From Certhia americana (Eukaryota > Chordata > Aves > Passeriformes > Certhiidae): a stretch of DNA of 64,000 nucleotides. Shown in pieces: positions 3,301 to 56,809 of the stretch (position 1 is the first letter of the stretch; every line of letters begins with the position of its first letter). A program made the position numbers and the translations under genes. A model generated the notes under the pieces. That model worked only from the letters and a program-made list of their open reading frames with translations. It searched no databases and was not told the DNA's origin. The DNA lies in assembly GCA_018697195.1 (NCBI GenBank), contig JAGMWU010000085.1, positions 22,361 to 86,360 on the forward strand, read 5' to 3'.

Positions 3301-3517
3301 GACCGTGCTGGTCGTGTCCCACCGGCCGCGGGTGCTGGATGCAGCCGACCGCCTCGTGGTGCTGGAGCACGGAGCCGTGGTGGAGACAGGAACACCAGCG
3401 GAGCTGCGGGGACGCTGCGAGGCCTACAGCCGCCTGCTCCTTGGAGAAGGCAGCAGTGGGGGGCCCGAGGCCCCCAAAATGGGCAGAGAGAAGGGGGCTG
3501 CAGCTGGCAGGGAATAA
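368..3517 (+). CDS. TAP2: TAP2-type antigen peptide transporter, 3' part
   Basis: This is half of the TAP1/TAP2 ABC transporter, which moves cytosolic peptides into the ER for MHC class I loading. Seven exons join in frame: 368-565, 981-1109, 1194-1382, 1451-1624, 1977-2136, 2526-2653 and 3269-3517, giving 408 C-terminal residues. The N-terminal membrane part lies off the left edge. Exons 1-3 cover the end of the membrane domain. Exon 4 holds Walker A (GHNGSGKST), exon 5 the Q-loop ([12 protein letters not shown]), exon 6 the signature LAAGE and Walker B ending VLILDEA, and exon 7 the SHR switch histidine. TAP2 rather than TAP1 is supported by the EHQYLH segment, the degenerate LAAG signature and the FSGTIREN region. 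The D-loop reads LDDGD rather than SALD. Introns are short and G-rich. Splice sites are GT-AG, with one weak GTCAGG donor after 565. Confidence 0.9.
2240..2540 (+). repeat. Tandem repeat containing copies of a TAP2 splice acceptor
   Basis: A unit of roughly 80-95 bp recurs about four times before the sixth TAP2 exon. Each copy has a GATCC..TGATCC motif, a pyrimidine stretch, an AG or near-AG, and a G-rich start resembling the exon (GGTGGGGGAGC). Copies centre near 2275, 2365, 2445 and 2520. Only the last, with AG at 2524-2525, opens the correct frame. The others are decoy-like duplicates of the exon's 5' edge. Confidence 0.65.
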
Positions 3518-8327: not shown

Positions 8328-11300
8328 TAGCTGTACCTCACCAATGATAATTCCACATTTGATATGGGTAATTCAGCACAGAGAGCTGAGCTGTGCCTCA
8401 CTCAGATGCTCACACTGGCGTTGATGTCTTGCTCTCACCAGAACAAGTGCACAGTGAAAGTGTTCTGAACACACACTGAGTTATGGGAATTCAACAAATT
8501 TTTTTTTCATGTCAAAGCTCCTTATGACAATGTCTCGAGATCCAAATGGGGTATTTTGCACAGCAGATGAGTTGTGCTGTTTAAAGGACAAATTTCTTGT
8601 GACTTAAAAACCTTGAAAGAGGGTATTTTCCTGCTGAAACATAATCAGATATGGTTTAGAACTGCCCTTGGAAGTAAAGTAAAAAAGAAATACCAACTGC
8701 TGGTCTTCAAAAAAATAATTTGGCTTCTTGAATCCTTTACCATGCCCCAGTGCACAGACAAGCAGGAGCTGCTGAATTCCGTGCATTGAAAACTTCCCTT
8801 TGGCCACAGTCTATAAAGCAAACTGCAAAAGACCAGCAGTTCAATAAACCACTGGGAAGTAAGAAGCAAATGAGTCCCAAAGCCATCACCAGTACCTTGG
8901 CTTTGAAAATTGTAGGCAGGTGATGTATTAATAAAAAATTCTATTTTCACATCATCTGTAGGTTTTTTTCCCCTGGATTTTATAATCCTTCTTTACCAAT
9001 CTACCCATAAGGAACTAATTTTTAAATTTGTGCAGGGTTTTAGCAAATGCTCAGATGATGATTTGAAGTTGCCATTCGATGTGTCGAACCGTGGCAAAAT
9101 CACTGATTCAGGTAAGACTGAAATATTTGCCATGCACATTCTTTACATTTTTTATATTGTCAAGTTTTAATTTTCATGAGTAGTCTCACAGTTTCATATC
9201 TGAAACACTGTTAAATACAGTTTCACTGTTACTTTTTTTTAGCAGTACATTGATCAAAATCTCTTTGTGTTTCAGATACAATCTCGCAGCAAGTAAAACT
9301 TTGCTCTGAAGTCGATGAAGAGGTCAGCTAAGTATCAACTCTACATATCTAATTTCTTGGGATCTTTGACATTTGTTCCCAAATGGTGCCTAAAGGCTTT
9401 TTCAGGCACTAGATATTTCAGGATCTATAAAGGAAGTAGTCAAAAGGAAGTAATGTTTTGTCTCCTGTTTAAAGTTGAATCACTTAGAGGAGAGATTTGT
9501 GATTTAGTGAATGTGCCTGGTGAGAAATCTTTATAAATTAAGGCAATTGCAACGTTGTTTGTTGTTGTTTTTTTCTTTTTTTGAAGTGCCTGTGACATCT
9601 GTAAGTTTTAATTAGAGTAAGATTTAAACACTAAAGTATTTTTGTGGAACTAGTTCTGAATATTCTCTTGAGATGCAGAATGGTTGAAGTCCGAGTATTC
9701 TTTGGAAAACAAGTAGATTATCCCAATTGCCTTGTCTGGTTTTGTTTTACCTGTAAAACAATGAATTTTGTGGTTTCCTCAAGCACTGGATTCTTTTCAC
9801 AGCGTCCTTACAGGCATATTTCTGCTTTAGCACAACTCAGTAAAGCTCATTTTTTTTGCAATAGCTTCTGTACTTTGCAGCTACAAAACGCTCTTTGCTG
9901 CCACAATGTAAACCACGTTTCTTGCTCTCCCCCTGCTGATTTTCCTCTCCCTGAGGACTGTTCTCCTTTTAATCCTAGCAGCTGTTGAAGTACCCTCAGG
10001 ACTGTGACAGTGTCGTGATGCAGCCAAGACAAGGACGGTTTTAGGGGGTGTCATCCATAAACCAAACTGCCCTGTGGGCTCCTGGGTTGCTCTTCCCTGC
10101 CTCGACCACCGGCCCAGAGCTGCTTGTAGGACACTTTCAAAGTGTTCCTAGAGCACAAGGGTGGGTGTTTTTAATTCCTGCTCCGTGTCTGTGTTAACAG
10201 CAATATCACAGGAACTCTGGGGCAAAGTCCCTGAGGCTGCTCGTTCTTAACTCAGCATTGTCTGTCAGAAGGAAAGGAAAGAAATGGTGTGAAGAACCTC
10301 CTCGAAGGAATTTTGGCTTGCCTGATAATTTTAGCCAAACTTTTATTGCTTTTGGTGGATTGCAGTTATCCATGTCTTTAAGGCCAGCTCTTTGGTGATG
10401 TCTGAAGGCACTTTGGGATCTTTCATGGTATTTGTGTCTCCTATGTGCTCTGTAATGCCTTTTGATATATACACAGTGGATGCACAAAGATTTAAACTTT
10501 GGCTCCTGAACAGATATGACCTTATATCACCATCTGTGGAAAAATATTCTTCTTGTGATGTTTCTAAGAGAGAAATATGTTAGCTACAAGAGTATTAATT
10601 GGATAGTATTTGAGATGAAATTGTGGAACCTGTTTTAATAGAATACCGAAACAATGAATGAATTGTTCTCCAAACTCTACAAAGAGGCTGAGAAGATCAA
10701 GCAGTGGAAACTGGCTGTGGAATCAGAACTAAACCAGAAAGAAAGAAAACTGCAAGAAAACAGAACGATTCTTGAAGCACGGAATAAAACCATTCAAGAA
10801 CTGCAGGCATGTATTGTAGACTAGAGACTGAATAGATGAAGTGAAGTGCTTCCTGATGTAGTAGGACAATATTATTGATACAATTAAATATTAAAGAATG
10901 TTGCAGTTTGGTTTGTGCCTTGAGAAAATGATTCTTTTGAGCAGGTGTGTGCACCTGTCCTGTACCTGTGTGTGTGTTTGTAGAATGTACCTGCAAGTGT
11001 CTCAGTTGCTGGTAAATTATTGTTTGTTAATTATTACGTCTTTCATGCAAAAGATGACTCAGCATGTAATACCAGATAAAACAGACTTCTGTGTACTGAT
11101 ACCCAAAATTATTTTTTCATGTGGAATTTGAGAAGTCGAAGTGTATTTCTAATATCCTTTTCAATAACAGTGTCTTTTTCTGTTTGTTCATTATGCAATT
11201 AGTTTGAAAATGAAAAACTCCATTTGAAGCTGGAAGATATGTGAAAATAAAGATCTCTTGAAGGAGTGAGTAATAAAAACAAATAGATATTTTTGTTGTG

Positions 11301-12520
11301 AAAGTGATCAGTTTTCCTGTGTGCAGTTTCATATAGCTGTTAAACTGTGAAGATCATTTACATTGTTACTCCTTAGGTACATAAAATACTGTGCACTCCT
11401 GTGCAAACATGGTATTTTTCCTTCCTTTAGAGCCAGTGATTCAAGGCATCTGTGTAATCTGCTCCAGGAAAGCTACACTCACCTCACAGAGAAGACCAGC
11501 AAATGTAAATGCTTTTTTATTTTTGATTTATGAGATCAAATGTACTTCCAGCTTGCTCTAAATTCACGAATGGATAAATGTTCTTGTGCTGTTCCACATA
11601 TGTCCTCCAGTTGAGATTGCCTGGATGTGGCTCCTCAAATGAGAAGTGAATTTTAAGTGTCTCACCAAATTAGAAGTGAAGCCACAGGTCTCACACACAT
11701 ATGTTTTATAATGGCTGAATCCAGAGGACTTTTGAAGCCAGTGAAATTGTTTGCTGAAAGGTTGCAAGCCTGGGAGCTGTTTGGGTGCCTGAACACTGAT
11801 AGAGGTTTGAGGCAGTGTCAACAGCCCTGATTAGCCTCTGGCAGCCACTCCAGAGCAGTGCACGTCTCCTCAAGTCTGGTCAGCCCCTTGAAGGTTTTCA
11901 GTCCCATCCAAATACTGTGATATTTTGGGAGATTCAAAGTGGCACTTCATGCCTCTTTTTAGCCAGTAGAATCTACTCTGAATTCCCAGCACACTTGAAC
12001 AAATTTCCAGAGCTGGCATTTCCTGTTTGTGGCAATTACACATTTTTGGGGGAAAAAAGAACTTAACCCAAAGGTATAATGAGAAACTAGGATTCTTCTT
12101 GCAAAACTGAACAAGCCAAGACAGTTGGATAACTTAATGAATTTAAATTCTTGAGGTTTTAAAACATGTTCTTGATTGGGAGTTTTACTTTCTATACAAT
12201 TTAGAATTGTTATTGTAATCATTGAAATTTTATGAACTAGATCCAGGATACTTTAGAAGTGTCTGTTTTAGCCTCAATCCTAGAAACACTGGTGTGTAGA
12301 TGTACTGGGTTTTTTGATAGCTGTGTTTCTTACTGTTCTCTTCTGTAATTGTTTTCTTAGGGAAAAACCGTATCAATTACAAAAGTGAAAGGCAAGAAGG
12401 AAAATATGGACATGGAGTGTTGTTGCAATTGTATAATGTCAGTTCTGTGGTCATAGGTATCTACTGATAGGAAGAAATTCAGTGCTAAACCCTACATTGC
12501 AGTTTATCAAATACTGACAG
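8328..12520 (+). repeat. Left arm of a 4.2-kb inverted repeat
   Basis: Read on the + strand, this arm matches the reverse complement of 31520-35713 along its whole length, introns included. Outer homology starts at a GTACCTCACC motif near 8330 (35713 in the partner). Inner homology ends within CAAATACT near 12520 (31520 in the partner). Exons 2 and 4 of the SYCP1 copy look identical between arms. Exon 3 shows one difference (CTCGCAG versus CTCACAG). The duplication is therefore young, or kept alike by gene conversion. The unmatched loop is about 19 kb. Confidence 0.93.
9036..11504 (+). pseudogene. SYCP1: SYCP1 5' partial copy, exons 2-6, broken
   Basis: Five exons of the minus-strand SYCP1 gene recur here on the + strand: 9036-9111 (GFSKCSDDDLKLPFDV), 9276-9322 (TISQQVKLCSEVDEE), 10642-10806 (ELFSKLYKEAEKIKQWK), 11203-11265 (FENEKLHLKLED) and 11431-11504 (SRHLCNLLQESYTHL). 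The fourth has lost 5 bp against its partner (63 versus 68 nt), which changes LEDKIG to LED-M-stop. Exon 1 with the start codon and promoter lies outside the duplicated arm, and exons 7 onward are missing. This copy cannot make SYCP1. It is the left arm's cargo and could be transcribed only from a foreign promoter or as antisense of read-through transcripts. Confidence 0.92.
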
Positions 12521-13922
12521 TATTTAGTTGGGATGAACACCCACCTGCATGTGGGAAGCACAGCGTCAATTCCTGGGTTTGCTTCCTTGCACAGCATTTC
12601 CTTGCCCCATGGACCTGTCTGTGTCTGAGCCCTGGAGTTTGGTCTCGTTCACTCTCTGGATTCTCCCCCATCAGGTGCTCCAGCCCCAGACACAGAGAGA
12701 TGTAGCTGTGGACTTGTGCCACGGCAACAAGTTCAGGGACCCTCAGTCAATTTACAGACTCAGGCACAGAAACAGGCAGACAGGACTCTACAACCTTCCC
12801 TGCTGTTTGCATTTCCTGCAAGCTTTCTGAAGCGTTGCTGGCAGCACATTTTTGTCATTTTTCAGGTGATTTACACAACACCTCAGAGGACTCACTCATG
12901 GTATCAGGAGAATTACCTGATATGCCATGGATTCATGTCCCTAGAAAATACCAAGGTTCCAATTGATTAGTTACTGTCTGAGTCTAGAAGTGGGCAGTAC
13001 AGACTTACAATGTTTTGCTTTCAAGTGCTCATGGGGAAAGCACAGTACATTCTTCCAGATCTCTGCCCAATATTTGTTAGTTACAAACAATAAAAAATCT
13101 TTTTTACATCACTGGTCAACAGCTCAACATAAGGAACTGAAACTACTGGCCTATCTATGAGATTACACAAAAAGAATGCAACAAACATGTTTTGCTTCCC
13201 ACTTCAGATGAATCTGGAATTTTTGATTTTTCACTGCATTTGAAGATGTACTTGTAGTGTTCTTGTTATCTCTAGGCTCTGAAGTAGGGTTTGTCCTTGT
13301 TGTGAAATCAAGATTAATCAAGGATTAATACAGAAATAGATGTTCTAATCTATCCTTACACTTCTGTGGCAGAAGCTGCTGGTCCCTAGGAAGGTGATTT
13401 CCGTCTGTGTTCAAATATTGAAAGCAACAACATTTAGTCCCACACGTTCTATTTCAGATAAACAATTTAATGGCATCCTAACATTGTTTTCACAATCTTA
13501 TAACATACATATTTACTCCTTATGAAGCTGGAATCTTTTCAAATACAAGTAATTCTATTGAAACTTCAATTTTAGAAACTTCAAACCCGTTTTAACACAC
13601 AGAAAATGAAACAGTCTAAAAAGACAGGTCTAACAGCCATTCAAATGCAGGAAAAAGCAAGAGGACTTCAGGTAAAAGTGCACATATTTAACAGCTACAT
13701 TTCTTTCACTAAGTACTATGCATTAAGAAAAACAAGAGTATATTTAAAAGGAAAGTTAAGCCCAGAATTTCTAATGACAGAAACAGCTTTGAAACAACTT
13801 TCTGTGTAATTACACTTATTTCAAAATTCATAACTGGCTAATTTGTGTCCCAACATTTTGCAGCAAAAGGGAGGAAAGGTGGAAAATATGCTGCAGGGGG
13901 ATGCAGTTATAGATCTGTAAAG
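12521..13922. other. Spacer between left arm and SYCP1 3' end
   Basis: AT-rich unique-looking sequence separates the inner edge of the left arm from the SYCP1 poly(A) region. Apart from the exon-like block at 13576-13671, I see no gene, RNA or clear repeat. Confidence 0.5.
13576..13671 (+). other. Orphan exon-like block, coiled-coil type
   Basis: A 96-nt open block starts after TTTTAG and ends CTTCAG|GTAAAAG, in phase at both ends. It encodes 32 residues rich in K and Q (KMKQSKKTGLTAIQMQEKAR in the middle). I do not recognise the protein and no companion exons were found nearby. It may be a stray exon of another coiled-coil gene or a chance open stretch with splice-like edges. Confidence 0.25.
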
Positions 13923-13928
13923 TTTATT
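13923..13928 (-). terminator. Probable SYCP1 poly(A) signal
   Basis: TTTATT on the + strand reads AATAAA on the minus strand, about 136 bp downstream of the SYCP1 stop at 14064. It is the first such signal after the stop in the gene's direction. Confidence 0.5.
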
Positions 13929-14063
13929 TGTGTAAAGAAAATGAACATAGTATTAAACACACTGAGTATGACAGAGAAATGCAACAAAGTACTGACTCTG
14001 CGAGAGGAACAACCCTGTGGTGGCACCAGCAAGCAATGCCAGGGCACTGGGTATTTCTGCATC

Positions 14064-17000
14064 TTAAGAAAAGAATTTTACAGCTTCTTTAATTTTTCTT
14101 TTCCTGTCCATTTTGGAGACTGCAGTCCACCCCGCCTCACGGATTCTCCTCATGGTTTTGAGTTTCAGTGCAGAGCCTGGAGATTTCACACTGGATGGAG
14201 CTGGTGTCTAGGAAGGAAAAGAAAGCCATCTGTTTGTTTCTGTAAACAATCTGATTAACTGTTTGGTTTAATAATATAAAAGGCTAACATACCTTTTTTG
14301 GTGCTGTGGAATGCAATTGTGAAGCTTGTGGATAGTCTTTGTACAATTTCTTAAACGTTTCTTCTTCTGAGACTATGCTCTAATAAATTAAAAAGTTACT
14401 TAGTGACACCATATTAAAAAATATTTTGTCTTTCCCCCCAAGGATATTAAATTAGGAAAAAAAAAAAAAAAAGTTAAATGTCATTATGAGACATAACAGT
14501 TCAATAAAAAGAATGCATCTTATGTCCGTACGACCACAATTCCAGACAGAACCAATTAAGTAAAAATAGACACATAAATATTGGCTTGAATGTGGAAGCC
14601 CAAACTCTTTATCTTCACTCTCAGACACAGCAGTGAGCACAAAGAACAGTTCAGTATGAGATTTGTTCTCTGACTCTTACCAGGAGGTCAGTGTGCTCAG
14701 AGCTGTCCGACTGAGTATCCAGATGGAGAAGCACTTTTTGTTTTTTCCTTGTGCTCTGCTCTGAAGGCAGGTTTGTGCTTCTTCCACCTTGCAGTTCATC
14801 TGTTGGAGGAGTCTTTATAATATATGTCTGGGAAAGAAAATGTCCATATTTTTCAATTATATTTTATGGGGTAAGTATTGAATCTAAACCCAAATTCATG
14901 ACCCAGTTTACAGTCTGAGTGTCCAAGGAGACACCTGAGAGGCGTGGTGCAACTATTATCTTTCCATCCCAATGTGAAGCAAAGACCTAAACAAAGTGGG
15001 GTAGGGTGGAAATATCTTTTTTTGGTTGCCAAATGAGGAGAATGAACAGGGAGCTGTGGAAGAGCTGAGCTTCATGGCGCATTGTATTTAAGTTCTTCAT
15101 GCCTATCTGCAGAAATTCAGGTTATTCTCAACTGTTGCCACTACATGTGAACTGTATCAAACACCTAAGAAAATGGAAACAAGCAAAACTGCAGGAAAAG
15201 GCTTTCAGAGAAAGATTGATAGTGATATCAACACTGGTGTTACTTAGAATAGTCCTTTCACTAGAAGTTAAACTGACAAACATTGCAACAGTCCAGTGCA
15301 GTCCTTTTTTAGAAAGATAACATCAAAATGGTCGTGGATTCTATTGTTCCAATATCAAAACTGCAAGCAAACTCCAGACAGGGAAGAAGGGTAAATTCTG
15401 CAGTCAGGAATGCTTTGATCCTTTGACAGTTTTTACAGCTATATAAGCTTTTTTCCTTTCCATAGAGAAGAGAGTGCCCTTACAAATGGACACTTTTGAA
15501 GACTTAGTGAAACAATTCTAGAGACATACAGCAACAACAGAGCATGAAAAATGACACATTGGGAGCCCTTGCACAAACTGCTGTCTAATATCTCCATGGA
15601 ATGGTATCACCCTTTAAAATCCCTGCTTATCCCAGGAGAAAAGAAGTATGCATCTACAGAGAGGTAAGAAAGACAGGCAGGAAAATGCAACAATAAAAAT
15701 TCACTCTTAGGAGATAAAACACTTCAATGCTGCCACCGAAGGAGACATGTGTTTCTTTTCCACCATGTTGACTTCCATAGGAATGTAATTTGGAGACTTT
15801 CTGTTTTTAATATGAAGAGATTCACTGTCTAGGTCTAAACAAGGTTTAGGAGTCTCAGGGACATAGGTTTGTATTTTCTATATGTTAAAAGGTTTTAAGT
15901 TAAAAGCAATCCAAGATCTTTTGTTGAATGCAAATAAATTATCATGGCACTACAATTGATTCTACACACATAAACACTACCAAATTTTAAAACTAATTAA
16001 GAAGTTAAAGTTACCTTGTGTTTCTTTTCACTTTCAGGAATCCTGTTTCGAGAGTGCTCTTTTACAAGATTCTCCTAAAAAAGTTATGTGATAGGAAGTA
16101 AGTATTTATGTGAATTCAGTTGTTAAAAATCTGAAATTACAGAACACAGCCTATAATCACAGACTGTTACAAAGTTTACACAAATCTATGACCAGATTTA
16201 GCTCAAAAGTCACCGTTTTCCCGTTCAGTTTCATTTCTTATACAGCTTCTCCCAGAGCACAAGCCCAGGCCACACCTCTCACCCACACTGTTGAGTTAGT
16301 AAAAAAACTTCACCTTTTCTTCAATTTCTGCTTTCAGTTGTTCCTTAAGGGACAACAGTTCACTTTTCAAACATGACAGCTCATTTTCCTAGAAACAATT
16401 AAATAAAAGATGGGGTAAATTAAGCACAACCTGGAAAAAAAGAAAACAGTCCAAAGCGAGACAGTAATTCATAGGGATACTCATTAGATACAAAAGATAA
16501 TTCTATTTGTTTTTCAATCCTATACTTGAAGCTTTGCTTCAGCTTGTTTAAAAAAGACTGAAGTACTATATGAAACAGGTACTTGATCAGAAGTGTTCCA
16601 GGTAAGACCTTAAAACAGGGAAAACAGGGGGTGAGAGGGCAGAATGTTAACTGTTGAAAACAGGAGTTCCCTATTCAAACTGTGAAGTCAGAACATGACA
16701 CACTATCTGGAAGAGTAGACACAAAGACACCGCTAGTCCAATTTCTTTTTACAAACATTTGCAGTGTTTAGTGCCCAGAATAAGATCTATAAGAAAATAA
16801 AAGCAACCAAATTAGGGGCCTGATTTTTACTGTTCAGTCACACTAAAGCAGACAGTTAACCCCTCCACAAATATTCATTAGGAAGAAGTAAAATATGGCA
16901 TTTGTAATTATATTACACTTCGAGGTGTGTTGGTTTAACACAGCTTGGCTCTCAGTGCAGGTGGAGGAAGCCACAGAAGCGGCTGCTGAGAGCAAAAGCT

Positions 17001-20000
17001 GCTCAAAGTTTCTGCTGTGCCCAGCAGAGCTGATTTCTGAAGGTGCTGATGCTGGACATGTTGCTGGCCCAATTTAAAAAGTTGGTAACGCCTCTGTGAT
17101 GACATATTTAAGGAAGAAAAAAAACCTGTGCACTTTTGCAAAAAATGTTTTGTTCTTCTTCCAAAGGATGGAGAGCTGCGTGCCGGGGCCATGCGGCCGC
17201 CACCATCTCAGCACAGCTCGTGATGTACTTTGCCTGAGAAACGACAGTCACTTTTAAAATTTAAGAGGTTTATTAAATTTTAATAAAACTACAGTAAAAG
17301 ACTGAAAAAGGAGAAGTCACAGCACTGTGAGTGACCATGACTAGCAGCCACATGCTTGTCTACAAAAGGGATGCTCTGCCTTTTATAGTCCTAGCCCCTC
17401 TCAAAGTCTTGTCAGCCAACTCCTTCTCTGCTGTCTGTTGCTGGAGATTACTTTCTCACATCTGGATTTCAGGTCAGGTGTCATTATGCCATGCCTCCTG
17501 GTAACAAGCCAGCCATCCCCAAATGCCCTGACTACCAAGGCTATAACAAGGAGAAGTGTCGGAAATCAAGGGACAGACAAACCTGAAAACCTGATGTCTA
17601 CGGGCCCAGACTTGGAGATGAACAGAGGATTTAATCTGAGACCCTGGAAAAGGCTACCAGACTTAGAGACTAGAAGCAAAAATGTAGATTTGTAGTTTAA
17701 GCAGAAACATGTCAAGCTAGGTAATGGAAAGTTTAGAGTTTAAAGTCTAAGAGACAGAAATAGTTATAAAGATAATAAAAAGTTTTAAGGTGTAGTACTG
17801 TAAGTTTGTGCATCGCTATATGATTGGTTAAGAAAGTCTGCACAGTGGCAAAATATGTAAACCAAAATCATTAACTGTTGGGTTAAAGAAATAAATAATC
17901 TTTGTGGCAGTATTCTATTGACTAATAAATCTTCAAAAGGCTTTGTAGCTAGAGCTCTTGTGACCTTTGGACTTCTGTGGTGAAGGTTATTAAGATAACC
18001 TCACTCCTTCCCTGAGACTGTACAAGGAAAAAGCAATAAATCATGTTTTAACGCATCTAACACTGGTCCCGTCTCTCTCTCAAAATCCCAGAAAGGGAGA
18101 GGAAAGCGCACTATGGGAGGACAGTGTGCAAATACATAATTATGTATCTACAAAACTTCTCTTAATATACACATAATATTAATCTCTTAATTGTGAGAGC
18201 CAACTATCACGTGGCTGACAGCGGGGGCATGGAGAGCAATTCCTCAATGCAGAGTCCAGGTGAGATCAACCTTTCAGAGCTGCAGAACCCTGTAAGAACT
18301 GTTCAATTGATAGAACCTGAGGCAAAACCAACCTGCAGACAACGATTTTCTCCTGAATCAGAGAAAAGGAAGAAGTGAAGACACATGAAAAGAACAACAT
18401 GGTGATGTTGAAGTCAGTGGGGGGAAGGAAGGACAAGAAGTGCTCCGAACGTCAGAGCTGAGATTCTTCTGCAGGTCATGGTGTTATAAAAAGGCTAAAA
18501 TATAACACTGGCTTTCACACCTATTTATTAGCTCTTGCATGTTAATATTGATCATAAGTACTTGGATACAGTACAATGTTTAACTCTATTTAGCTGTTTG
18601 TTAGTGTAACACAATTTAGCAGTTTCAATATGTACTGTACTGCTTATAGAAATAATAGTGTGATGAATGTATTATACCACAGGCCTTAGCAAAACACGAG
18701 ATGTTAAGATGCTCCTAGGTAACCAAAAAAATGGTGCAAAACAATGAGGCTGTTTCCTCCACATCTGCTGACTGGCCTTTCCAAGGGATAAGATAACCGT
18801 GTCACAAACCAGAGCACCAGAAAGTAATTAGGGAATCACATGTCAAACTCGAGGAAAACATGTTCAATACTTAATGTTAAATCATCAGACGATGTAAAAC
18901 CATCAGATGAAGACACAAGAAGAAATAAAACATATTCACCTGGTTCAAAAGATGTCATGTAGATAAGTCAGAATGTAAAGAAACCATACAAAAGAGTTCC
19001 TGAAACATCAAAAGCTCTCAAGAATGTTTGAATAATGTACTAACACACCAATATGCATTTTCCTCAGCAATGTAACAGTACATGGATAACACAATTTGAA
19101 TTTACCGGTGTGGTTTTGGGCAAATAGGCAGAAACACCTTAGCATGCTGAACATTGTCCCTTTTTATCCCTTATTAAACTTTAAAAAACTCTGAAGCGTG
19201 AGCTTCATTTTTCACACATAGTGAGGACTGTAATACCACAAACTGTCTCCTTGTAATTCACGAGGCACAGGGGGAATGCAGAGATCCACTCACAGCCTGT
19301 GAGAAAAGGTGCTCATGCTGGAGTGAGTGGATGCTAAAAAGCTGTCACCTAGTGGGAAATTCAAACAGAGAGAGAAGATAGAGAAAGAGGACCCTTGCTT
19401 CCAAACTAGAACAGCTCATCCGTAAAAGAAAACACCCTGTGAACATTCGTTCATGACCCATGCAAAAGAGTTGGGGGAAGAAGACTGGTTGCCTGAGGGA
19501 GGGACTGCTACTCCTAAAAATTAAAACCACGCTGCTAAAGTTCAGAGAAAACTGTCTCCTGTGGGAAAGACCCCATTGCAAAGCAAGAAAAAGAAACTTC
19601 CTAAGCAAACTGAAAAAAGGTTTTTAAAAGCAACAAACTGATTAAAGGTGACACATTTTGTCTCTCTGCGCTGTTGGTTGGCAAGAGGGAGGGACTGGGA
19701 AAAAAGGTGTTCCAAAGGTTTATTTTAATTCTCATTACTCACTTTCAATTCTATTAATAATAAATTTTCTTGATACCATTTAGGTTTCAACCTGTTTTCC
19801 CCTCAAAGTGTTTTTCTCTTAATCCTTATCTCAACTCATGAGACCTTCAGTTTTTCTTTCCCCTCCTCTGCTCCAACCATAGAAGAGATAAATGAGTGAA
19901 TAAATGAGAGGGTATTTTGTGCGTGTCTGGTGCTTAGTCAGGATGAAACCACTACACAAAGACATCAGCTCCTTCACTGAATTATTTAACATTGGAAAGT

Positions 20001-26000: not shown

Positions 26001-29000
26001 GACTTCACAGGCTTTTGCATTCATCTAAGTAAAAAAGACTAAAAAAACACTAAATAAGAATTCCAGTTCTCTAGGATAGAACAGAAAGGCAATCATCAGG
26101 GCTGTGTCTTCATCCTTAGCACAGCTACTGCAGGAGTGCAAGGGGCAGCAGTCAGGCTCTTGTGTACAGGAGGAGAGAGGATCTCCTGCTGTCACTGCTC
26201 TGAGCAGAGCAGTTCAGGGTGGGACACTGCTCTCTGTGCTATTTCTTATGCACTTGTATGCAAGTGATGATCTATATCTTCCCTGTTTATAAAAACATGT
26301 TACTATTGCCTTATTTCAGACCTCTCAGATTTGGAGAGCATTTTCATTAATCGCTCCCAATTTTTCTCTCTCTGCAAATGTTCTATGGGACCCTCAAGAT
26401 CCTTCTTCAGTAAGAATCTTCCAATTTGCCCATTTTAGAAAAATAGTGATACCCAGTTCAGAACACTTAATGCACAAATTATAACAAACAAGCAGTCATG
26501 GTAAAATGTGCACCTGATTTCACACTACCTTAACTTTAGTTGATGGTTTCTTGTTAGACTTGTACATATGTAAACATAAAATCATAATGAAAAGAAACCT
26601 CTATTAAGAGTGCACTTCATATAGTTTAGACTTCTGTGACATAAAATGGGCCTGTGTCACAGTACAGTAGGGTTCACAGAGGCCAGAGTTAATTACCTTC
26701 CTATAAGTAAGAAAAAAATGGGAAAACTTGATATCCAGAGGGAGTGGCATTTGAATGGGCATGAATGAAGAAGGAGATAACCAAAAACCTTGACAAGAAA
26801 AACCAAAACATGGGAGACAAGAAAAACCAAAAACATAGGAGACAAGAAAAACAAAAGAATGGCAGAGAAGAAAAAGAGTGGCAACAAACAAGTTCTTCAA
26901 AGAAAACACTGAAATTGTGTGTGAGAACGTTTAGTAGAAATGTGTTTACTTATGGCATTTAGGATACTTACAAAGCAAGAGGAATTTTATATGAAGAGCA
27001 AAAGCCATGAGATTAAGAAAATGAACATTTACCACTGTTTCTGACAGCTCTTCAAGTCGCACTTCTTTGTCACATTTCATTTTAGTCATCTCTTCTACAG
27101 CACATGTAACGTAAAATCAATGGAACAGAAATAATTTTTCATGTTCAGCAGGCAGTATAAACACTTATCCTTTTGCAATACCCCGTTCTCAAAACCTACT
27201 GGATTAAGTTCAGAAACTGTAATTCATGACTTAATCTAAATGCAGACTTGAAAAAACGATTAAGAAAGACATTAGCAAATCTGTATCTGAAGAGAAACTA
27301 ATTCTTTATCTTAAAGAAAATTCAGAGCCTAATACTAGTTAGTTATTACTAACTTCCAAATGTTTTCTAAGTGCACATTCACAATCCTGGTATTTTCTGC
27401 AAGTACTCAACACCAAGGTTGTGTTTGCTGTGGGCTTCTCACAGTCTCATCTTGCCTCGTTCTGGACAAGCATCAGCAGTTCACTTTTGAACACTTCCCT
27501 AGAGATGCCCTCAGTGCAGATGGAGACACCCAAGTACGTTTCTCATCTGTCAGATGAGATCTAGGGCCACGTGCTGCACAGCAGGAAAACAGTCCTGAAG
27601 GCAGATCTCTTACTCTGGGGGCTAAGGAGCACATCCCTAGAAACCACATGGCATCAAAGCAGTATTCAAAGATAACCCCTGTCACATGCAGCATGGGGAG
27701 GGCCTACAGAAAACGTAATGGGAGGGTTTTAGCTCTGCTACAAGCTACAGAAGTCACTCCTGGCACCTGCAGTGCTACTGGTATTAGCCGGAAACCAAAA
27801 TTACTTCCATGAGAATTCATGCGTGGATGGTCTTACCACTGGAGCTCTGCACAGCACTGCCCTTTGGCTGTTGCCAGTACCAATGACCAGCAAAGAAAAG
27901 GCAGTCAGATGAGGAAAAACAACTTCAGGCATTCCTGAGAGCTACAGGTACTGTAAAATCCTTTCTCCAAGTACTAGAGACAATCCATTTCCAGAACACA
28001 GCAGAAAACATTTTTATTACTGCCTAGCTCATTTACTGCTGTTCTACAAGCCTTACCCAGTTCAGTGGACTTATTTTGGAGCTCCAAGGTAAGCAGCTTT
28101 GACTCAGCTTCACATTTCTTTAACCTAAGAAAACGATCATGTAAAAGCCCCAAGTGTAGAGTACAAAACACTGCATTTGAAACTTAAAGGACAATAAGAC
28201 AAAGTCTTACCACAAGCACTTTCAGAACATTTACTTTTCAACTGGCAGATGAGAGATCTGCCTGCGACACGCATCAAATTTCATTTCACAACTTCAGAAC
28301 AGTAGACATCAAAGTAAACAAATATATACTTACAGAAATTTGTATTTCTTGAAGACAGAATTATGGAAGTTGGAAGGGGCAAAAATTGACTTTTTATAGA
28401 CCAGTATCAACCAGTACAACTAAAAAAAAATACATTAAATTCTCTGCATTTAGGTCACTGTATCAAAACCCCTCCGAATTTCAGCTTCGTTTCCAATTGT
28501 TCTTGATTTTGTCATAGACTGCAACCTCTAAGATGACTCTTTGAATCTAAACTATTCACCTATTTACTATTATTATTATTGAATTTACCGATTTTGCTCC
28601 TCTTGCAGCAAACTTTTCAAATTGGCAATAGAAGTCTCAGACTCCTCTGTCTGGGTTGCAAGCAAAGCCTTCAGTTTTTTACATTCTTCCTCTTGTGCTT
28701 CCTTTTCTCCAGTGACCTGCATTAATGTTTTCACTGTAGTCTGGAATTCGGTTTCTAAGTTCTTTTGAGTAACCTTCAAAACAGGATATAATTTCCAAAA
28801 ATGTTTTGCAACAAACAGACATAGATGTTTCCTATCTAAACTGAGTCCATAGTTAGTTATGCAAATCCTCATCTAGTCTATTTATACTGTAAAACTAGAA
28901 GCAAGGTCTACCTCTGCCTTTTGCAATGAAATTTTAGCCTCTTCCAGCTCTGCCCTCAAATGCTCTTGACTGACCTGGAATTCCTTTTGCATTTCTTCTT

Positions 29001-32000
29001 CACGTACTAAGCAAAAAAAAAGGTATGTTTATAGTTTTAAAAACAGGATATTTACTAAAAAACGCTGCTAAACATGGAAAATCACACACATTTATAGAAT
29101 TTAACAAAGACCAATGGTATTGCCATCATATACTATAAATACTTTGAATATACATGGCTTGAAAATATTGAAAATCTAATTCTGAAAAGTAAGTGTCCTC
29201 AGTGGCACCTGCCTGACTGTAAATTTGCGAAACTGAAGTAACTTATTTTCTCCTCGTAATTTTCTAAAGCTCTCACTGCTTGATTCACCCTAAAAACTAT
29301 CCTTCCAGACCTGATCCCACATAAGCAGCCTCTGTTTCAAACAAAAAAAAAAGGCCTTCAAGGCCCCAAAATTCTGCTGCTGACCAGCAACAGAACAAAA
29401 CTATCATGACCCTGATTCCTATACTTCTATGAACAATTACATTTAAACATAGACAGAACTCTTACATTTTGCCTCCATTAAGTCAGCAATCTTATTTTGT
29501 GATGTCTGCAGCTGAACCTTGATGTCTTTTATTACACCATCTCTTTCATCTCTCTGTATGGTAAGAGCTGCAATCTGGAAAAATTAAAGAAATATCATTA
29601 TGAAGTCTGGAAAAGGGACAGATACTCATTTTCATTTCATTTTCATTTTCATTTGTACCCCAGGTATGATAAGCAGACACACTGCTATCGAATGGTTTAA
29701 TCAGTTGTGAAGTTAGATAAGGCTGTTGATCTTAGCCAAATATTGATCAAGTCTCTAAATTAACATTACCCTAAATGAAAAAGTTCTGCAGTTCAGAAGC
29801 AAACCATGAATTCCTTTAGTAGACTAAAGGTACTGAAACATCACTAAACTTAGCAGAATCTGACGTCAAGGCAGCTTCAGCTCTTATTTTGTCTTTTCTA
29901 TTAATACCCAGAAACACTTCTTGGCTCTTGCATTGCCCCTTTAGTCACAAATAAAGCTGTACATATCAGATGGTAAAACTGAACAAACCTGCTCTTCCTT
30001 CTGACTGACTTCCAGTTTGCATTCTTTTTCAAACTTGTCCACTTTTTCTGCTTCTTCTTTTACTTTTGAGACACAGTAATATCCAGAGTTAACATTCTGG
30101 CTGAAATATACTCCAGGTTCAATACAACTTCCACTTTAAGATGGCTGGTCATTGTACAGCTCTATAATTTGTTTCCCAAGAGTAATTGTTGAGGCAATGT
30201 TTGATTTTAGAATCAAAATACCATTTTTTTTGCCAGCTTTCCACAGAATTAGTCCATTACTCCATGTTTGGTATAAGAAACTAACAGAAAAGAGCATGTG
30301 AAAATGAAACAGGAACATAGCAGCCTGTATATGTAGAGAGAACATTTGGCTAGAGTTTCTGTAGCTATACACTAGAGCATTCTCATTTAAATAAACTAAC
30401 TACTTGAAATAAGTATGGATCTCTAGACTGTACTTTACAGACAAAACTTGGACTTTGAGTGACTGTTTGAAAAATAAAGTTCCAAATTTGGCCCAGTGGA
30501 ACAACACCAGAAGGGGCCAGGCAGTGAATACAGGCAGCATGAATAAAAAAGGGTCCCAGTGTGACCTGCTTACCACTCGAGCACTTCACACCTGTCTGCC
30601 CTGACACTGCACACGTAATAAAAACTAGGAAGTACAAAACTGTTCAGCCAGCAGCATAAACACAAAAAGCAGAATTCTCACATTTGAAACTCATTTCCGA
30701 TCTGTCGTTCTCGGCTTGCACACGAAGCTCTTGAAATGCCACTGTCATTCTCTAAGAATAAAATTTAATATTTGAAGCTCAATATTGGCAGCTCTAGAAG
30801 TTCCCCAGGGGCTGCTGCCAAGCTCAGCCATTCTGAGAAATCACCAGGTAGGTGAAATAGAGTCCTAAAAGAAGACAGAAGTTCTGGCAGCCACCCAGCA
30901 CATATCACACAGACCACATGGACAACAACCCACACACTGCTGCCCTTTCTGCACTGAATGTGCTTTATATAACACAAAAATAATTCTTGAAAAGGGACTG
31001 AAAACCTGACTTCCTGCATCACACATGACATGATATGCACACATGATGGCTACAAACAGTATCTCAACATAAACATGTAACTCAGCTCAGCATGTCCACA
31101 TAACTCACATTCCTTTTAGCAAGCTATGTCACTTACTTCCAGGTTGCTGTGAAGTTCCTCATACAATTGTCTTGTTTCTTCTTTTTCCTGTTCATCTATC
31201 AAAGCAGGAATATATAAGATTTTCTTTTGAAAAAGAATTGGGCCAGTTGTCCAAGTCATTATACTTAATCATCATAATGAATTTTAAAAAAAGGAATTAT
31301 CAGCTCCTTTCTTATTAAATAAGTCAGTCTGAAATATGGTGCCAAAAGTTATACAATTTAGGGAAAATGTGTATTTTATTGAAACATTAAGCAAGCTCAG
31401 CTTTTAAATTACCTTGCCAATACCACTTTTTCTGTGAGAAGTGTATTTCTGGATCAATTTATGTAATCATGTTAATTCTTACGGTATTAATATCATTGAA
31501 TAATAATGTATCACAACTGTTAGTATTTGATAAACTGCAATGTAGGGTTTAGCACTGAATTTCTTCCTATCAGTAGATACCTATGACCACAGAACTGACA
31601 TTATACAATTGCAACAACACTCCATGTCCATATTTTCCTTCTTGCCTTTCACTTTTGTAATTGATACTGTTTTTCCCTAAGAAAACAATTACAGAAGAGA
31701 ACAGTAAGAAATACAGCTATCAAAAAACCCAGTACATCTACACACAAGTGTTTCTAGGATTGAGGCTAAAAAGAAATAGACACTTCTTAAGTATCCAGGA
31801 TCAAGTTCAGAAAATTCCAATGATTACAGTAACAATTCTAAATTGCATAGAAAGTAAAACTCCCAATCAAGAACACGTTTTAAAACCTCAAGAATTTAAA
31901 TTCATTAAGTTATCCAACTGTCTTGGCTTGTTCAGTTTTGCAAGAAGAATCCTAGTTTCTCATTATACCTTTGGGTTAAGTTCTTTTTTCCCCAAAAAAT

Positions 32001-35000
32001 GTGTAATTGCCACAAACAGGAAATGCCAGCTCTGGAAATTTGTTCAAGTGTGCTGGGAATTCAGAGTAGATTCTACTGACTAAAAAGAGGCATGAAGCGC
32101 CACTTTGAATCTCCCAAAATATCACAGTATTTGGATGGGACTGAAAACCTTCAAGGGGCTGACCAGACTTGAGGAGACGTGCACTGCTCTGGAGTGGCTG
32201 CCAGTGGCTAATCAGGGCTGTTGACACTGCCTCAAACCTCTATCAGTGTTCAGGCACCCAAACAGCTCCCAGGCTTGCAACCTTTCAGCAAACAATTTCA
32301 CTGGCTTCAAAAGTCCTCTGGATTCAGCCATTATAAAACATATGTGTGTGAGACCTGTGGCTTCACTTCTAATTTGGTGAGACACTTAAAATTCACTTCT
32401 CATTTGAGGAGCCACATCCAGGCAATCTCAACTGGAGGACATATGTGGAACAGCACAAGAACATTTTTCCATTCGTGAATTTAGAGCAAGCTGGAAGTAC
32501 ATTTGATCTCATAAATCAAAAATAAAAAAGCATTTACATTTGCTGGTCTTCTCTGTGAGGTGAGTGTAGCTTTCCTGGAGCAGATTACACAGATGCCTTG
32601 AATCACTGGCTCTAAAGGAGGGAAAAATACCATGTTTGCACAGGAGTGCACAGTATTTTATGTACCTAAGGAGTAACAATGTAAATGACCTTCACAGTTT
32701 AACAGCTATATGAAACTGCCCACAGGAAAACTGATCACTTTCACAACAAAAATATCTATTTGTTTGTATTACTCACTCCTTCAAGAGGTCTTTATTTTCA
32801 CCTATCTTATCTTCCAGCTTCAAATGGAGTTTTTCATTTTCAAACTAATTGCATAGTGAACAAATGCAAAAAGACACTGTTATTGAAAAGGATATTAGAA
32901 ATACACTTCGACTTCTCAAATCCCACATGAAAAAACAATTTTGGGTATCAGTACACAGAAGTCTGTTTTATCTGGTATTACATGCTGAGTCATCTTTTGC
33001 ATGAAAGACATAATAATTAACAAACAATAATTTACCAGCAACTGAGACACTTGCAGGTACATTCTACAAACACACACACAGGTACAGGACAGGTGCACAC
33101 ACCTGCTCAAAAGAATCATTTTCTCAAGGCACAAACCAAACTGCAACATTCTTTAATATTTAATTGTATCAATAATATTGTCCTACTACATCAGGAAGCA
33201 CTTCACTTCACCTATTCAGTCTCTAGTCTACAATACATGCCTGCAGTTCTTGAATGGTTTTATTCCGTGCTTCAAGAATCGTTCTGTTTTCTTGCAGTTT
33301 TCTTTCTTTCTGGTTTAGTTCTGATTCCACAGCCAGTTTCCACTGCTTGATCTTCTCAGCCTCTTTGTAGAGTTTGGAGAACAATTCATTCATTGTTTCG
33401 GTATTCTATTAAAACAGGTTCCACAATTTCATCTCAAATACTATCCAATTAATACTCTTGTAGCTAACATATTTCTCTCTTAGAAACATCACAAGAAGAA
33501 TATTTTTCCACAGATGGTGATATAAGGTCATATCTGTTCAGGAGCCAAAGTTTAAATCTTTGTGCATCCACTGTGTATGTATCAAAAGGCATTACAGAGC
33601 ACATAGGAGACACAAATACCATGAAAGATCCCAAAGTGCCTTCAGACATCACCAAAGAGCTGGCCTTAAAGACATGGATAACTGCAATCCACCAAAAGCA
33701 ATAAAAGTTTGGCTAAAATTATCAGGCAAGCCAAAATTCCTTCGAGGAGGTTCTTCACACCATTTCTTTCCTTTCCTTCTGACAGACAATGCTGAGTTAA
33801 GAACGAGCAGCCTCAGGGACTTTGCCCCAGAGTTCCTGTGATATTGCTGTTAACACAGACACGGAGCAGGAATTAAAAACACCCACCCTTGTGCTCTAGG
33901 AACACTTTGAAAGTGTCCTACAAGCAGCTCTGGGCCGGTGGTCAAGGCAGGGAAGAGCAACCCAGGAGCCCACAGGGCAGTTTGGTTTATGGATGACACC
34001 CCCAAAACCGTCCTTGTCTTGGCTGCATCACGACACTGTCACAGTCCTGAGGGTACTTCAACAGCTGCTAGGATTAGAAGGAGAACAGTCCTCAGGGAGA
34101 GGAAAATCAGCAGGGGGAGAGCAAGAAACGTGGTTTACGTTGTGGCAGCAAAGAGCGTTTTGTAGCTGCAAAGTACAGAAGCTATTGCAAAAAAAATGAG
34201 CTTTACTGAGTTGTGCTAAAGCAGAAATATGCCTGTAAGGACGCTGTGAAAAGAATCCAGTGCTTGAGGAAACCACAAAATTCATTGTTTTACAGGTAAA
34301 ACAATACCAGACAAGGCAATTGGGATAATCTACTTGTTTTCCAAAGAATACTCGGACTTCAACCATTCTGCATCTCAAGAGAATATTCAGAACTAGTTCC
34401 ACAAAAATACTTTAGTGTTTAAATCTTACTCTAATTAAAACTTACAGATGTCACAGGCACTTCAAAAAAAGAAAAAAACAACAACAAACAACACTGCAAT
34501 TGCCTTAATTTATAAAGATTTCTCACAAGGCACATTCACTAAATCACAAATCTCTCCTCTAAGTGATTCAACTTTAAACAGGAGACAAAACATTACTTCC
34601 TTTTGACTACTTCCTTTATAGATCCTGAAATATCTAGTGCCTGAAAAAGCCTTTAGGCACCATTTGGGAACAAATGTCAAAGATCCCAAGAAATTAGATA
34701 TGTAGAGTTGATACTTAGCTGACCTCTTCATCGACTTCAGAGCAAAGTTTTACTTGCTGTGAGATTGTATCTGAAACACAAAGAGATTTTGATCAATGTA
34801 CTGCTAAAAAAAAGTAACAGTGAAACTGTATTTAACAGTGTTTCAGATATGAAACTGTGAGACTACTCATGAAAATTAAAACTTGACAATATAAAAAATG
34901 TAAAGAATGTGCATGGCAAATATTTCAGTCTTACCTGAATCAGTGATTTTGCCACGGTTCGACACATCGAATGGCAACTTCAAATCATCATCTGAGCATT

Positions 35001-36127
35001 TGCTAAAACCCTGCACAAATTTAAAAATTAGTTCCTTATGGGTAGATTGGTAAAGAAGGATTATAAAATCCAGGGAAAAAAACCTACAGATGATGTGAAA
35101 ATAGAATTTTTTATTAATACATCGGCTGCCTACAATTTTCAAAGCCAAGGTACTGGTGATGGCTTTGGGACTCATTTGCTTCTTACTTCCCAGTGGTTTA
35201 TTGAACTGCTGGTCTTTTGCAGTTTGCTTTATAGACTGTGGCCAAAGGGAAGTTTTCAATGCACGGAATTCAGCAGCTCCTGCTTGTCTGTGCACTGGGG
35301 CATGGTAAAGGATTCAAGAAGCCAAATTATTTTTTTGAAGACCAGCAGTTGGTATTTCTTTTTTTACTTTATTTCCAAAGGCAGTTCTAAACCATATCTG
35401 ATTATGTTTCAGCAGGAAAATACCCTCTTACAAGGTTTTTAGGTCACAAGCAATTGGTCCTGTAAACAGCACAACTCATCTGCTGTGCAAAATACCCCGT
35501 TTGGATCCCTACACATTGTCATAAGGAGTTTCGACATGAAAAAAATAACTTGTTGAAATCACATAACTCAGTGTGGGTTCAGAACACTTTCACTGTGCAC
35601 TTGTTCTGGTGAGAGCAAGACATCAACGCCCATACGAGTATCTGAGTGAGGCACAGCTCAGCTCTCTGTGCTGAATTATCAAACGTGGAATTATCATCGG
35701 TGAGGTACAACTATAACACAGAGCAGATGCTCGAAAAGATGATTCCCTTCAGTTTTGACAGAAAATTACAGCAAAAGTCATTGAAATTCAAACCGAAGTT
35801 GCTCCCCCGGCACCAGTCCAGGCATATGCAGAGGAATGAGTCCAGCGCAGAAACCCATGCGTGTGTGTGTGCTGCAGCTCCCGGCTCTGCCGGGGCACTC
35901 CCCGGGCACAGCTCTGTCCCCGTGTCCCAGGAAAGGGTCCCTGCGGTTTCCCCTCAGCCCCCTCCTCAGCCACGGCCTCCAGAGCACCACAGCACGAGGG
36001 GGCGGCTGGGGACGGGCCGTCCTCAGCGGCCCCGCGGCCGAGCGCTCACCTGGGATCTGTCCGCAGACACCTGCCCAGTGCTCAGACGCGGCGGCATGAA
36101 CAATTGAAACCGGTTTTCCTTCTCCAT
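14064..36127 (-). CDS. SYCP1: SYCP1, synaptonemal complex protein 1
   Basis: SYCP1 forms the transverse filaments that zip paired chromosomes in meiotic prophase. Twenty-nine exons are recognised: 36050-36127, 34935-35010, 34724-34770, 33241-33405, 32777-32844, 32538-32611, 31137-31195, 30682-30751, 29989-30062, 29466-29574, 28912-29006, 28589-28773, 28057-28124, 27033-27094, 25605-25708, 24997-25114, 24687-24757, 23971-24052, 23056-23118, 22333-22395, 21390-21506, 20694-20804, 20010-20102, 16314-16388, 16015-16074, about 15723-15877, 14681-14827, 14293-14379 and 14064-14207. They give about 905 residues, against roughly 976 in human. The N-terminus is MEKENRFQLFMPPR. KLYKEAEKIK opens a long coiled coil, with CQHKITEMVALMEKHK near its end. 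The basic tail ends MDRKRKIKEAVKFFS. Phases agree at every junction except after 15723. About 36 residues expected between 27033 and 25708 were not found. Exons 2-6 lie in the right repeat arm. No stop was seen in the joined frame, so the gene may be functional. Confidence 0.93.
16925..17225 (+). mobile_element. LTR-like fragment in a SYCP1 intron
   Basis: A TGTGTTGGTTTAAC start, a GTGATGACATATTTAAGG promoter-like box near 17100 and a GC-rich tail with GCGGCCGCC resemble avian endogenous-retrovirus LTRs. No coding part is seen. The call rests on resemblance only. Confidence 0.4.
17226..18110 (+). mobile_element. Possible retroviral remnant in the same intron
   Basis: The stretch ends with GCAATAAATCATGTTTT followed by a TCCCGTCTCTCTCTC segment, a layout typical of an LTR poly(A) signal and U5. 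No gag, pol or env frame is visible. It could equally be unrelated intron sequence. Confidence 0.3.
18486..19222 (+). mobile_element. Solo LTR-like repeat, copy 1
   Basis: About 740 bp are homologous along their length to 37608-38322 in the same orientation. Shared landmarks are GATCATAA-TA-TT-GGATA, AGAAATA-TAGTGT, AACATCAAAAGCTC followed by AATAATGT, and TTATTAAA then CATTTTTCACAC at the 3' end. Two diverged copies of non-coding sequence, one inside an SYCP1 intron and one beyond the gene, point to a dispersed LTR family. The class was not determined. Confidence 0.65.
26765..26890 (+). repeat. Imperfect A-rich tandem repeat
   Basis: Three or four imperfect units built on ACAAGAAAAACCAAAACATGGGAG occur in a SYCP1 intron. 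The open frame across it is only a consequence of the repeat. Confidence 0.6.
31520..35713 (-). repeat. Right arm of the 4.2-kb inverted repeat
   Basis: This is the partner of 8328-12520, in reverse orientation. It contains SYCP1 exons 2-6 and their introns as part of the intact gene. Exon 1 (36050-36127) is outside the arm, and exon 7 (31137-31195) lies about 320 bp beyond its inner edge. The intact exon 5 (68 nt) shows this arm is the unmutated copy. Confidence 0.93.
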
Positions 36128-36537
36128 GGCCCTGATAAAAGGGCGGGCGGGCGGGCGGGCCCCGGCGCCGGTCCCGCTCGGCGGCTGCTGAGGGAGAGCG
36201 CCAAGGGCGGGAAGCTCGGCGGCCCCTCAGAGCAGCGTGGCGGGGGCGCCGCCCAGCGGAGCGCTGACCCGCGGGAGCGGCGCACGGCCCGGCCCGGCTC
36301 GGCTCGGCCGGGGAGAGGCGGGAGCGGGGCCGGGGAGAGGCGGGAGAGAGCCGGAGAGCGGCTGGAGAGAGCCGGAGAGCGGCGGGAGCGGGGCCGGGGA
36401 GAGGCGGCAGCGGGGCCGGGGAGCGGCGGGAGCGGGGCCGGGGAGAGGCGGGAGCGGGGCCGGGGAGGCGGCAGCGGAGCCGGGGAGCGGCGGGAGCGGA
36501 GCCGGGGAGCGGCGGGAGCGGAGCCGGGGAGAGGCGG
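36128..36537 (-). promoter_or_regulatory. GC-rich minisatellite in SYCP1 upstream region
   Basis: Upstream of the SYCP1 start codon is a CpG-dense stretch. From about 36300 it becomes a tandem repeat of a roughly 20-24-bp GGAGCGGGGCCGGGGAGAGGCG unit. Its position suggests promoter or first-exon surroundings. A repeat this G-rich could affect transcription, but that is inference. The array is cut off sharply at 36537 by an LTR-like sequence. Confidence 0.6.
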
Positions 36538-37177
36538 GTGTTAGGAATAAGTTTGCTAAATTGGTTGTAATAAGTTCCTAAGTTTATTAAATTAGTTGTT
36601 AGTTGATGCTGTTCCTAAATTCATAAGTTAAATCTCGTGTTAATTGTTAATAGAATAAATGACCTTGTCCCCCCAACTGTACTTTCCCTATCCCGTCGGG
36701 AAATGCCGCCGCTGCTGCGTCCCAAAACAATGCCGCCACTAAGGAGGGGGAGATAACCACCGTGAATATGCAAATGTGAAAGATGCAAGAGCCCATTTGA
36801 CACCAAATGCCTCTAAAACAAGGAGCCTACATGACATCTCGAAAAACCAACAACACACTGCACCTGAGAAAAGGCTGAGCAATCCCCCACGGCACTTTCC
36901 AGTTCGGAATGTAGTCACCATAACCTAGTGGGAATCGACTAGAGTGACACCGCCGGACTGCGAGCGAGTCATTGTCCACCCAAGGACTCTCGTGAGGATG
37001 GAAGCCTCAGCTCTGCCCTGAGGCAAAGCTGCCAAATTTCTCCTTCTCTGCGTTGTCTACGGGAGCAGCAGCGACGGTGTGCGCAACACCTTCGGACACC
37101 TACCCCAAAGAACTGATTTCAATAAAGGCCCTTGGAAAGGAGCTGGTTTCCTGGCCTTTTTTTAATTTATATCTGAG
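36538..37177 (+). mobile_element. LTR-like insertion inside the GC minisatellite
   Basis: A block of about 640 bp with ordinary base composition starts TGTTAGGAATAAG. It contains a TTCAATAAAGGCCC poly(A)-type signal near 37120. It is bordered on both sides by the same GC-rich repeat, with GCGGG directly before it and again just after it. This is what an insertion would leave. The 3' boundary is uncertain because no terminal CA was identified. Confidence 0.5.
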
Positions 37178-56801: not shown

Positions 56802-56809
56802 GTGAGAGG

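Follow-up and report, generated by a model that had tools for sequence, protein, structure and literature searches.

Here, we present an analysis of SYCP1, which encodes the transverse filament of the synaptonemal complex, in a 64,000-nucleotide stretch of the Certhia americana genome (the window; positions 22,361 to 86,360 of contig JAGMWU010000085.1, hereafter C85, which has 164,811 bases). The SYCP1 locus is displaced: it adjoins TAP2, and a remnant of the gene lies beside TSHB on another contig. Moreover, a 4.2-kb piece of the gene containing exons 2-6 is present a second time, in inverted orientation. The displacement is the larger feature and is absent from an earlier note on this DNA, which had described the inverted repeat. 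It is highly probable that relocation of SYCP1 to a site beside TAP2, decay of the old copy, later inverted copying of exons 2-6, and ectopic conversion between the two arms of the resulting repeat jointly account for the locus.

The displaced SYCP1 locus and its older copies

The gene model was built by spliced alignment with a human SYCP1 sequence, followed by a check against bird SYCP1 proteins. It has 29 exons with AG acceptors, GT donors save three GC donors, and a single terminal stop. A first model with 32 exons was dropped because its exon 4 (33791-33759) is missing from the 11 bird SYCP1 proteins compared; two further exons of that model (26392-26322 and 26070-26040) were dropped as doubtful. 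The 901-residue protein (residues 1-901) is 85% identical, end to end, to SYCP1 of Corvus brachyrhynchos, and 81%, 70%, and 71% identical to the proteins of a wagtail, a suboscine, and a shearwater, respectively. The match to PF05483, the full-length alignment, and the intact spliced open reading frame place it in the SYCP1/SCP-1 family. One exon lies outside the arms of the repeat, five (exons 2-6) lie in the right arm, and 23 lie in the spacer; the corrected model thus returns the counts of five exons in the arm and 23 in the loop given in the earlier note. Exons 1, 2-6, and 7-29 are colinear in the assembled gene. The features on which the argument depends are as follows (window coordinates, with the basis in brackets):

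14064..36127, minus strand: complete SYCP1 coding region from start to stop codon, with 29 exons, 901 residues, and an unbroken open reading frame (spliced alignment and bird proteins)
36050..36127, minus strand: first SYCP1 exon, bearing the start codon and lying in neither arm (gene model)
31516..35713, minus strand: right, native arm with SYCP1 exons 2-6 and introns (self-alignment and gene model)
12522..31515, minus strand: spacer with SYCP1 exons 7-29 (gene model)
8328..12521, plus strand: left, derived arm, an inverted copy of exons 2-6 without exon 1 (self-alignment)
1234..3416, plus strand: 3' part of TAP2, nucleotide-binding domain exons (human TAP1 probe and protein search)

In the first 8.4 kb of the window, the sole Pfam family matched is an ABC transporter (E up to 0.01). 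Its best relatives in the protein search are passerine TAP2 proteins, with up to 88% identity, and based on this search an assignment as TAP1 was rejected. The exons, whose edges are approximate because they were placed with a human TAP1 probe, lie at 1451-1624, 1977-2136, 2526-2653, and ~3269-3416. A TAP1-like domain is located upstream on C85 in the opposite direction to TAP2. A tenascin-C probe had no match in the window or the other loci probed.

Searching the same genome with a 1-kb query, we found matches beyond the two arms on contigs C28 (74% identity), C27 (four pieces, 84-89%), and C9 (81%), and no copy with more than 89% identity other than the two arms. At C28:4755401-4767544, a decayed SYCP1, in which 6 of the 29 accepted exons are matched and a stop and indels are present, is followed ~6 kb on by TSHB on the same strand and then by three pieces of TSPAN2. 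SYCP1 and TSHB are neighbors in human, and the TSHB-TSPAN2 site on C28 is probably the ancestral SYCP1 site. A passage of PMC9309457 gives gar and human the gene order NGF-TSPAN2-TSHB-SYCP1, although another of its sentences describes the human region without the part bearing tshb. The copy at C27:15663210-15697500 is also degenerate: it retains 24 accepted exons out of 29 (25 out of 32 for the initial model), has many stops and extra sequence between exons, and is ~12-18% diverged by piece; the last SYCP1 exons were not found in it or in a further 6 kb of C27. The match at C9:21968105-21968779 is a fragment around exon 2, about 18-21% diverged (~18% over 651 columns). Compared with the arms, C27 is about 12-13% different (12.7-12.9% in the arm comparison), while C28 is 24% different in filtered columns (2634 of 3727, with poorly aligned stretches dropped) and 32% different in all 3727. 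Based on these distances, C28 came first, then C27, then the arms; the distance of C27 from the window is smaller than that from C28. In exon 5, the C27 and C28 copies share the position of a stop codon, yet the two are not closest relatives by distance.

In other birds, linkage was assessed by comparing, by eye, the sizes of the contigs holding two proteins, equal sizes being a strong but indirect indication that both lie on one contig. The lists compared were the best 120 of 635 matches for SYCP1, the best 120 of 4874 for TAP2, and the complete list of 67 for TSHB. Vidua macroura, the only passerine in both the SYCP1 and TAP2 lists, has the same contig size, 476,383 bases, for both proteins. 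The SYCP1 and TAP2 contigs differ in size in all ten non-passerines for which both sizes are available; among these, only the four TAP2 contigs of at least 39 kb (Calonectris, Alca, Aptenodytes, and Charadrius) carry some weight, and differing sizes may also reflect different assemblies of one species. Four species are present in both the SYCP1 and TSHB lists, three of them with both sizes. Buteo buteo and Aquila chrysaetos each show a single contig size for SYCP1 and TSHB (23,950,067 and 20,993,271, respectively). In the suboscine Chiroxiphia, the SYCP1 contig has 770,156 bases versus 6,921,628 for the TSHB contig; because the two differ, this comparison weakly suggests that the move predates the oscine-suboscine split.

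In an SYCP1 protein tree of 37 sequences (35 proteins picked from the best 120 of 635, the C27 copy, and the window protein in its uncorrected 32-exon form; 1427 alignment columns trimmed to 853), which was rooted on one shearwater and whose supports were taken after rerooting and may shift by a node, the passerine clade has a support of 100 and a stem of 0.090, and its 28 tips include the decayed C27 copy. The distance from the shearwater is 0.226-0.326 for the passerine tips versus 0.054-0.150 for eight other birds. The oscine node has a support of 50, and the node uniting the window protein, Catharus, and most other oscines has a support of 60. The tree strongly supports a passerine source of the window protein but does not place the species closely; an oscine source is supported by the identities to crow (85%), wagtail (81%), and suboscine (70%) SYCP1. 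The C27 copy stands beside the corvids with a support of 49, a placement that does not fix its origin. In the part of PMC2911116 available to us, SYCP1 is among the zebra finch genes under positive selection. There are also signs of repeated SYCP1 duplication. Among the best 120 of 635 matches, at least four SYCP1-like proteins of Poecile atricapillus, which are probably separate genes, share the contig size 1,848,639, and an SYCP1-like protein of Ammospiza nelsoni is on an 18-Mb contig and groups with other Ammospiza in the tree.

The partial inverted copy and its mosaic divergence

Self-BLAST of the window aligned 8328-12521 (plus strand) with 35713-31516 (minus strand) at 97.908% identity over 4206 columns, with 68 mismatches (in 4186 positions, indels being extra), 7 gap openings, and a score of 7175 bits; the spacer is 18,994 bases. 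The arm positions, the near-identity, and the loop of ~19 kb reported in the earlier note are therefore reproduced, and the self-alignment that it had called for displays one outstanding inverted repeat in the window. Chance was rejected as the source of the arms, as the best inverted match among 20 shuffles in 2-base blocks scored 41 bits. There is no N anywhere in the window, and the sequence flanking the arms is unrelated at either edge. Consistent with the claim that SYCP1 carries an inverted duplication of its own exons 2-6, these exons lie in the right arm, and both arms, translated with stops read through, match PF05483 (right arm, E = 6.8e-24; left arm, E = 3e-19). The introns are retained in both arms and are as alike as the exons, again as the note had it. 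A processed retrocopy is ruled out, since introns are present in both arms and in the C27 and C28 copies.

The left arm sits 1.5 kb past the SYCP1 stop codon and is antisense to the gene. Homology to C27 crosses both edges of the right arm, and homology to C28 crosses its outer edge; because of this continuity, we conclude from the alignments that the right arm is the native one and the left arm a derived, inverted partial duplicate. In the left arm, the exon 5 copy is frameshifted by a 5-base deletion, while the remaining four exon copies (exons 2, 3, 4, and 6) have 0 or 1 mismatch each. Lacking exon 1 and being frameshifted, the left arm is a pseudogene. Thus, two arms do face each other, as proposed, but they are not equivalent. 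Nor is it supported, as worded, that an inverted repeat of the gene encloses it: the right arm belongs to the gene, and neither arm contains exon 1.

The arms are near-identical overall but not evenly so. Over successive segments, they are 6.9%, 0.5%, 4.2%, 0.7%, 4.8%, and 0% apart, and the tracts of interest in the arm alignment are as follows:

8328..8700, no strand: outer divergent tract, arms 6.9% apart
8701..11120, no strand: long, putatively homogenized tract, arms 0.5% apart, spanning the exon 2-4 copies
11121..11360, no strand: divergent island, arms 4.2% apart, holding the frameshifted exon 5 copy
11203..11265, plus strand: left-arm exon 5 copy, frameshifted by the loss of 5 bases and carrying 2 mismatches
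12121..12370, no strand: divergent island in an intron, arms 4.8% apart

The segment borders were set after viewing the data; the dispersion index of the differences (4.22), which was reached in none of 10,000 random placements, is independent of them. The clustering of near-identical and divergent tracts is the patchwork typical of ectopic gene conversion. Because the divergence is mosaic, we suggest that this is an older duplication that has probably been partly homogenized by conversion, which would settle the choice left by the earlier note between a recent duplication and one maintained by conversion. The frameshifted exon lies in one of three divergent islands, which fits the elimination of conversions that carried the deletion into the live gene; with just three islands, this fit is only suggestive.

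Sex-chromosome palindromes are inverted segmental duplications homogenized by gene conversion. The structure described here resembles them in having two facing arms, tract-wise homogenization, and a gene in or near the arms. In ampliconic palindromes of the sex-chromosome type, the arms are >99% identical and the spacer is small; here, in contrast, the arms are 4.2 kb long and 97.9% alike, the spacer of 18,994 bases exceeds the arms, and one arm is a broken partial copy. The structure is a partial inverted duplication with probable conversion, a type of event already known but here affecting an unusual gene.

Several other features of the region deserve mention. The window is low in GC between 8 and 36 kb (0.34-0.41 in 2-kb steps versus 0.48-0.64 in the surroundings), a stretch that spans the arms and SYCP1 and whose edges are not sharp at 250-500-base steps. 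Just upstream of SYCP1 exon 1, a very GC-rich minisatellite at 36306-36538 (22-base unit, ~11 copies) sits within a GC peak of 74-84%; other minisatellites are located at 40495-41022 (19-56-base units) and 56808-57521 (13-45-base units). Pfam scans of both strands of window positions 36.2-64 kb (E up to 0.01) yielded only C2H2 zinc-finger families above the curated cutoff. Arrays of C2H2 zinc fingers with an 84-base repeat occupy ~54205-55093 on the minus strand, and a related array is present further along C85 (L012:509-1776). The segment 61999-62619 is 87% identical, in inverted orientation, to sequence past the SYCP1 copy on C27 (L029:134-758) and is perhaps a dispersed repeat.

Origin of the arrangement and alternative explanations

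We propose that SYCP1 moved from the TSHB-TSPAN2 site to the TAP2 site in the passerine or oscine ancestor and that the old copy then decayed. Later, in the lineage of this bird, the 4.2-kb piece with exons 2-6 would have been copied in inverted orientation to a position 1.5 kb past the 3' end of the gene, most likely by replicative template switching. Since then, the arms have probably paired and swapped short tracts by ectopic conversion, so that most exons of the dead copy stay identical to the live ones. A crossover within the repeat would turn the loop around and disrupt the gene: exon 1 would then be followed by exons 2-6 and the wrong gene end, whereas exons 7-29 would lie behind a copy without exon 1. 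Because exon 1 would in this way be separated from exons 7-29, the inverted repeat looks like a liability. Inversion of the loop, which the earlier note thought the repeat could promote, is possible in principle; however, the gene is assembled colinear, and an inversion would split it. The assembled chromosome is uninverted.

Some observations weigh against this proposal. The longest identical run between the arms, 367 bases, was reached in 253 of 2000 simulations and is unexceptional by itself. When the differences were polarized with C27, 33 were left-like, 25 right-like, and 7 neither, which gives no clear donor. The argument for conversion is drawn from the clustering of differences, and part of this clustering could also arise from uneven constraint or mutation. 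Probes for SIKE1, CSDE1, NRAS, and NGF found no match in the 50 kb of C28 between 4735001 and 4785000, and therefore only one side of the old neighborhood is visible. The linkage to TAP2 by equal contig sizes covers one passerine, and most of the non-passerine TAP2 contigs are too short to inform. Finally, the arms are known from assembled contig sequence alone.

This last point bears on an assembly artifact, with either a fold-back read or sequence of a second haplotype inserted in inverted orientation. In the zebra finch, chromosome sequence related to the major histocompatibility complex (MHC) is described as hard to assemble in the part of PMC2907588 consulted, and stretches of C85 preceding the window carry thousands of Ns (4053, 4366, and 2360), marking gaps or withheld sequence. 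The window itself, however, is free of them. Near-identity is expected of fold-back reads, and common flanks of allelic copies, but the 68 differences in 4186 positions, with indels in addition, are clustered, one side carries a frameshift, and the flanks differ at both edges. We therefore regard an artifact as improbable. It is less probable still that C85 derives from a germline-restricted chromosome, with the standard SYCP1 elsewhere. We expect TAP2, which is adjacent, to be on a standard chromosome; Vidua appears to hold the same pair on one contig; and the genome search with the 1-kb query disclosed no other copy above 89% identity, the copies on C27 and C28 being decayed and that on C9 a fragment. 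What speaks for such an origin is that SYCP1 is found on the germline-restricted chromosomes of the blue tit and nightingales in the part of PMC10172847 available to us.

Two alternatives concern the arms themselves. Staggered breaks could have inverted the loop once, leaving the arms as the duplicated breakpoint, and in Drosophila, inversions of this type are flanked on either side by inverted duplications. Exons 1-29 are colinear, though, and the enclosed piece is thus not inverted, which leaves this explanation a slim prospect. We give least credence to retention of the left arm for a function in which read-through SYCP1 transcripts form double-stranded RNA and dampen SYCP1. The geometry would allow it, as the left arm is antisense, lies downstream of the stop codon, and is still similar to the gene; however, the arms have drifted apart in three tracts, and nothing beyond conversion is needed to explain the similarity. 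Relocation followed by inverted copying and conversion remains our preferred explanation.

Implications for SYCP1 in passerines

In the open-access literature searched, outside of which lie supplements, preprints, and most subscription papers, and which for two queries comprised 20 of 195 and 20 of 73 matching papers, there is no mention of the SYCP1-TAP neighborhood, the relocation, or the inverted copy. It is already established that the TAP genes of passerines no longer lie in the MHC class I region (PMC8893315 and PMC2907588, both seen in part). Our locus is like the translocated TAP1-TAP2 locus of those papers in that TAP is away from MHC class I, in the zebra finch on a microchromosome; "sycp" does not occur in either main text as available to us. 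PMC10172847, in the part seen, reports that the blue tit has two SYCP1 paralogs on standard chromosomes plus a germline-restricted SYCP1, and that genes of the synaptonemal complex are overrepresented on the germline-restricted chromosomes of the blue tit and nightingales. The likeness lies in extra SYCP1 copies in songbirds; the difference is that here a partial inverted copy lies next to the live gene, which is itself beside TAP2. In the main text of that paper, as far as seen, "tap1" and "inverted" have no occurrences; "tap2" was not looked for.

The inverted copy provides a natural test of the interplay between conversion and selection, with a dead copy beside an essential gene. Of the two findings, the displacement of SYCP1 to TAP2 is the more interesting one. 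We see an even chance that, in all passerines, the only working SYCP1 lies beside TAP2, and that a linkage as old as the bony fish was broken, after which the protein evolved faster and the gene was duplicated repeatedly; the chickadee cluster, the sparrow copy, the germline-restricted copies, and the inverted copy described here would then all belong to these duplications. If true, a gene of the synaptonemal complex evolves linked to an antigen-processing locus in the group to which songbirds, with their germline-restricted chromosome, belong. Moreover, a displaced, faster-evolving, and repeatedly duplicated passerine SYCP1 would bear on the enrichment for synaptonemal genes of the germline-restricted chromosomes in the blue tit and nightingales.

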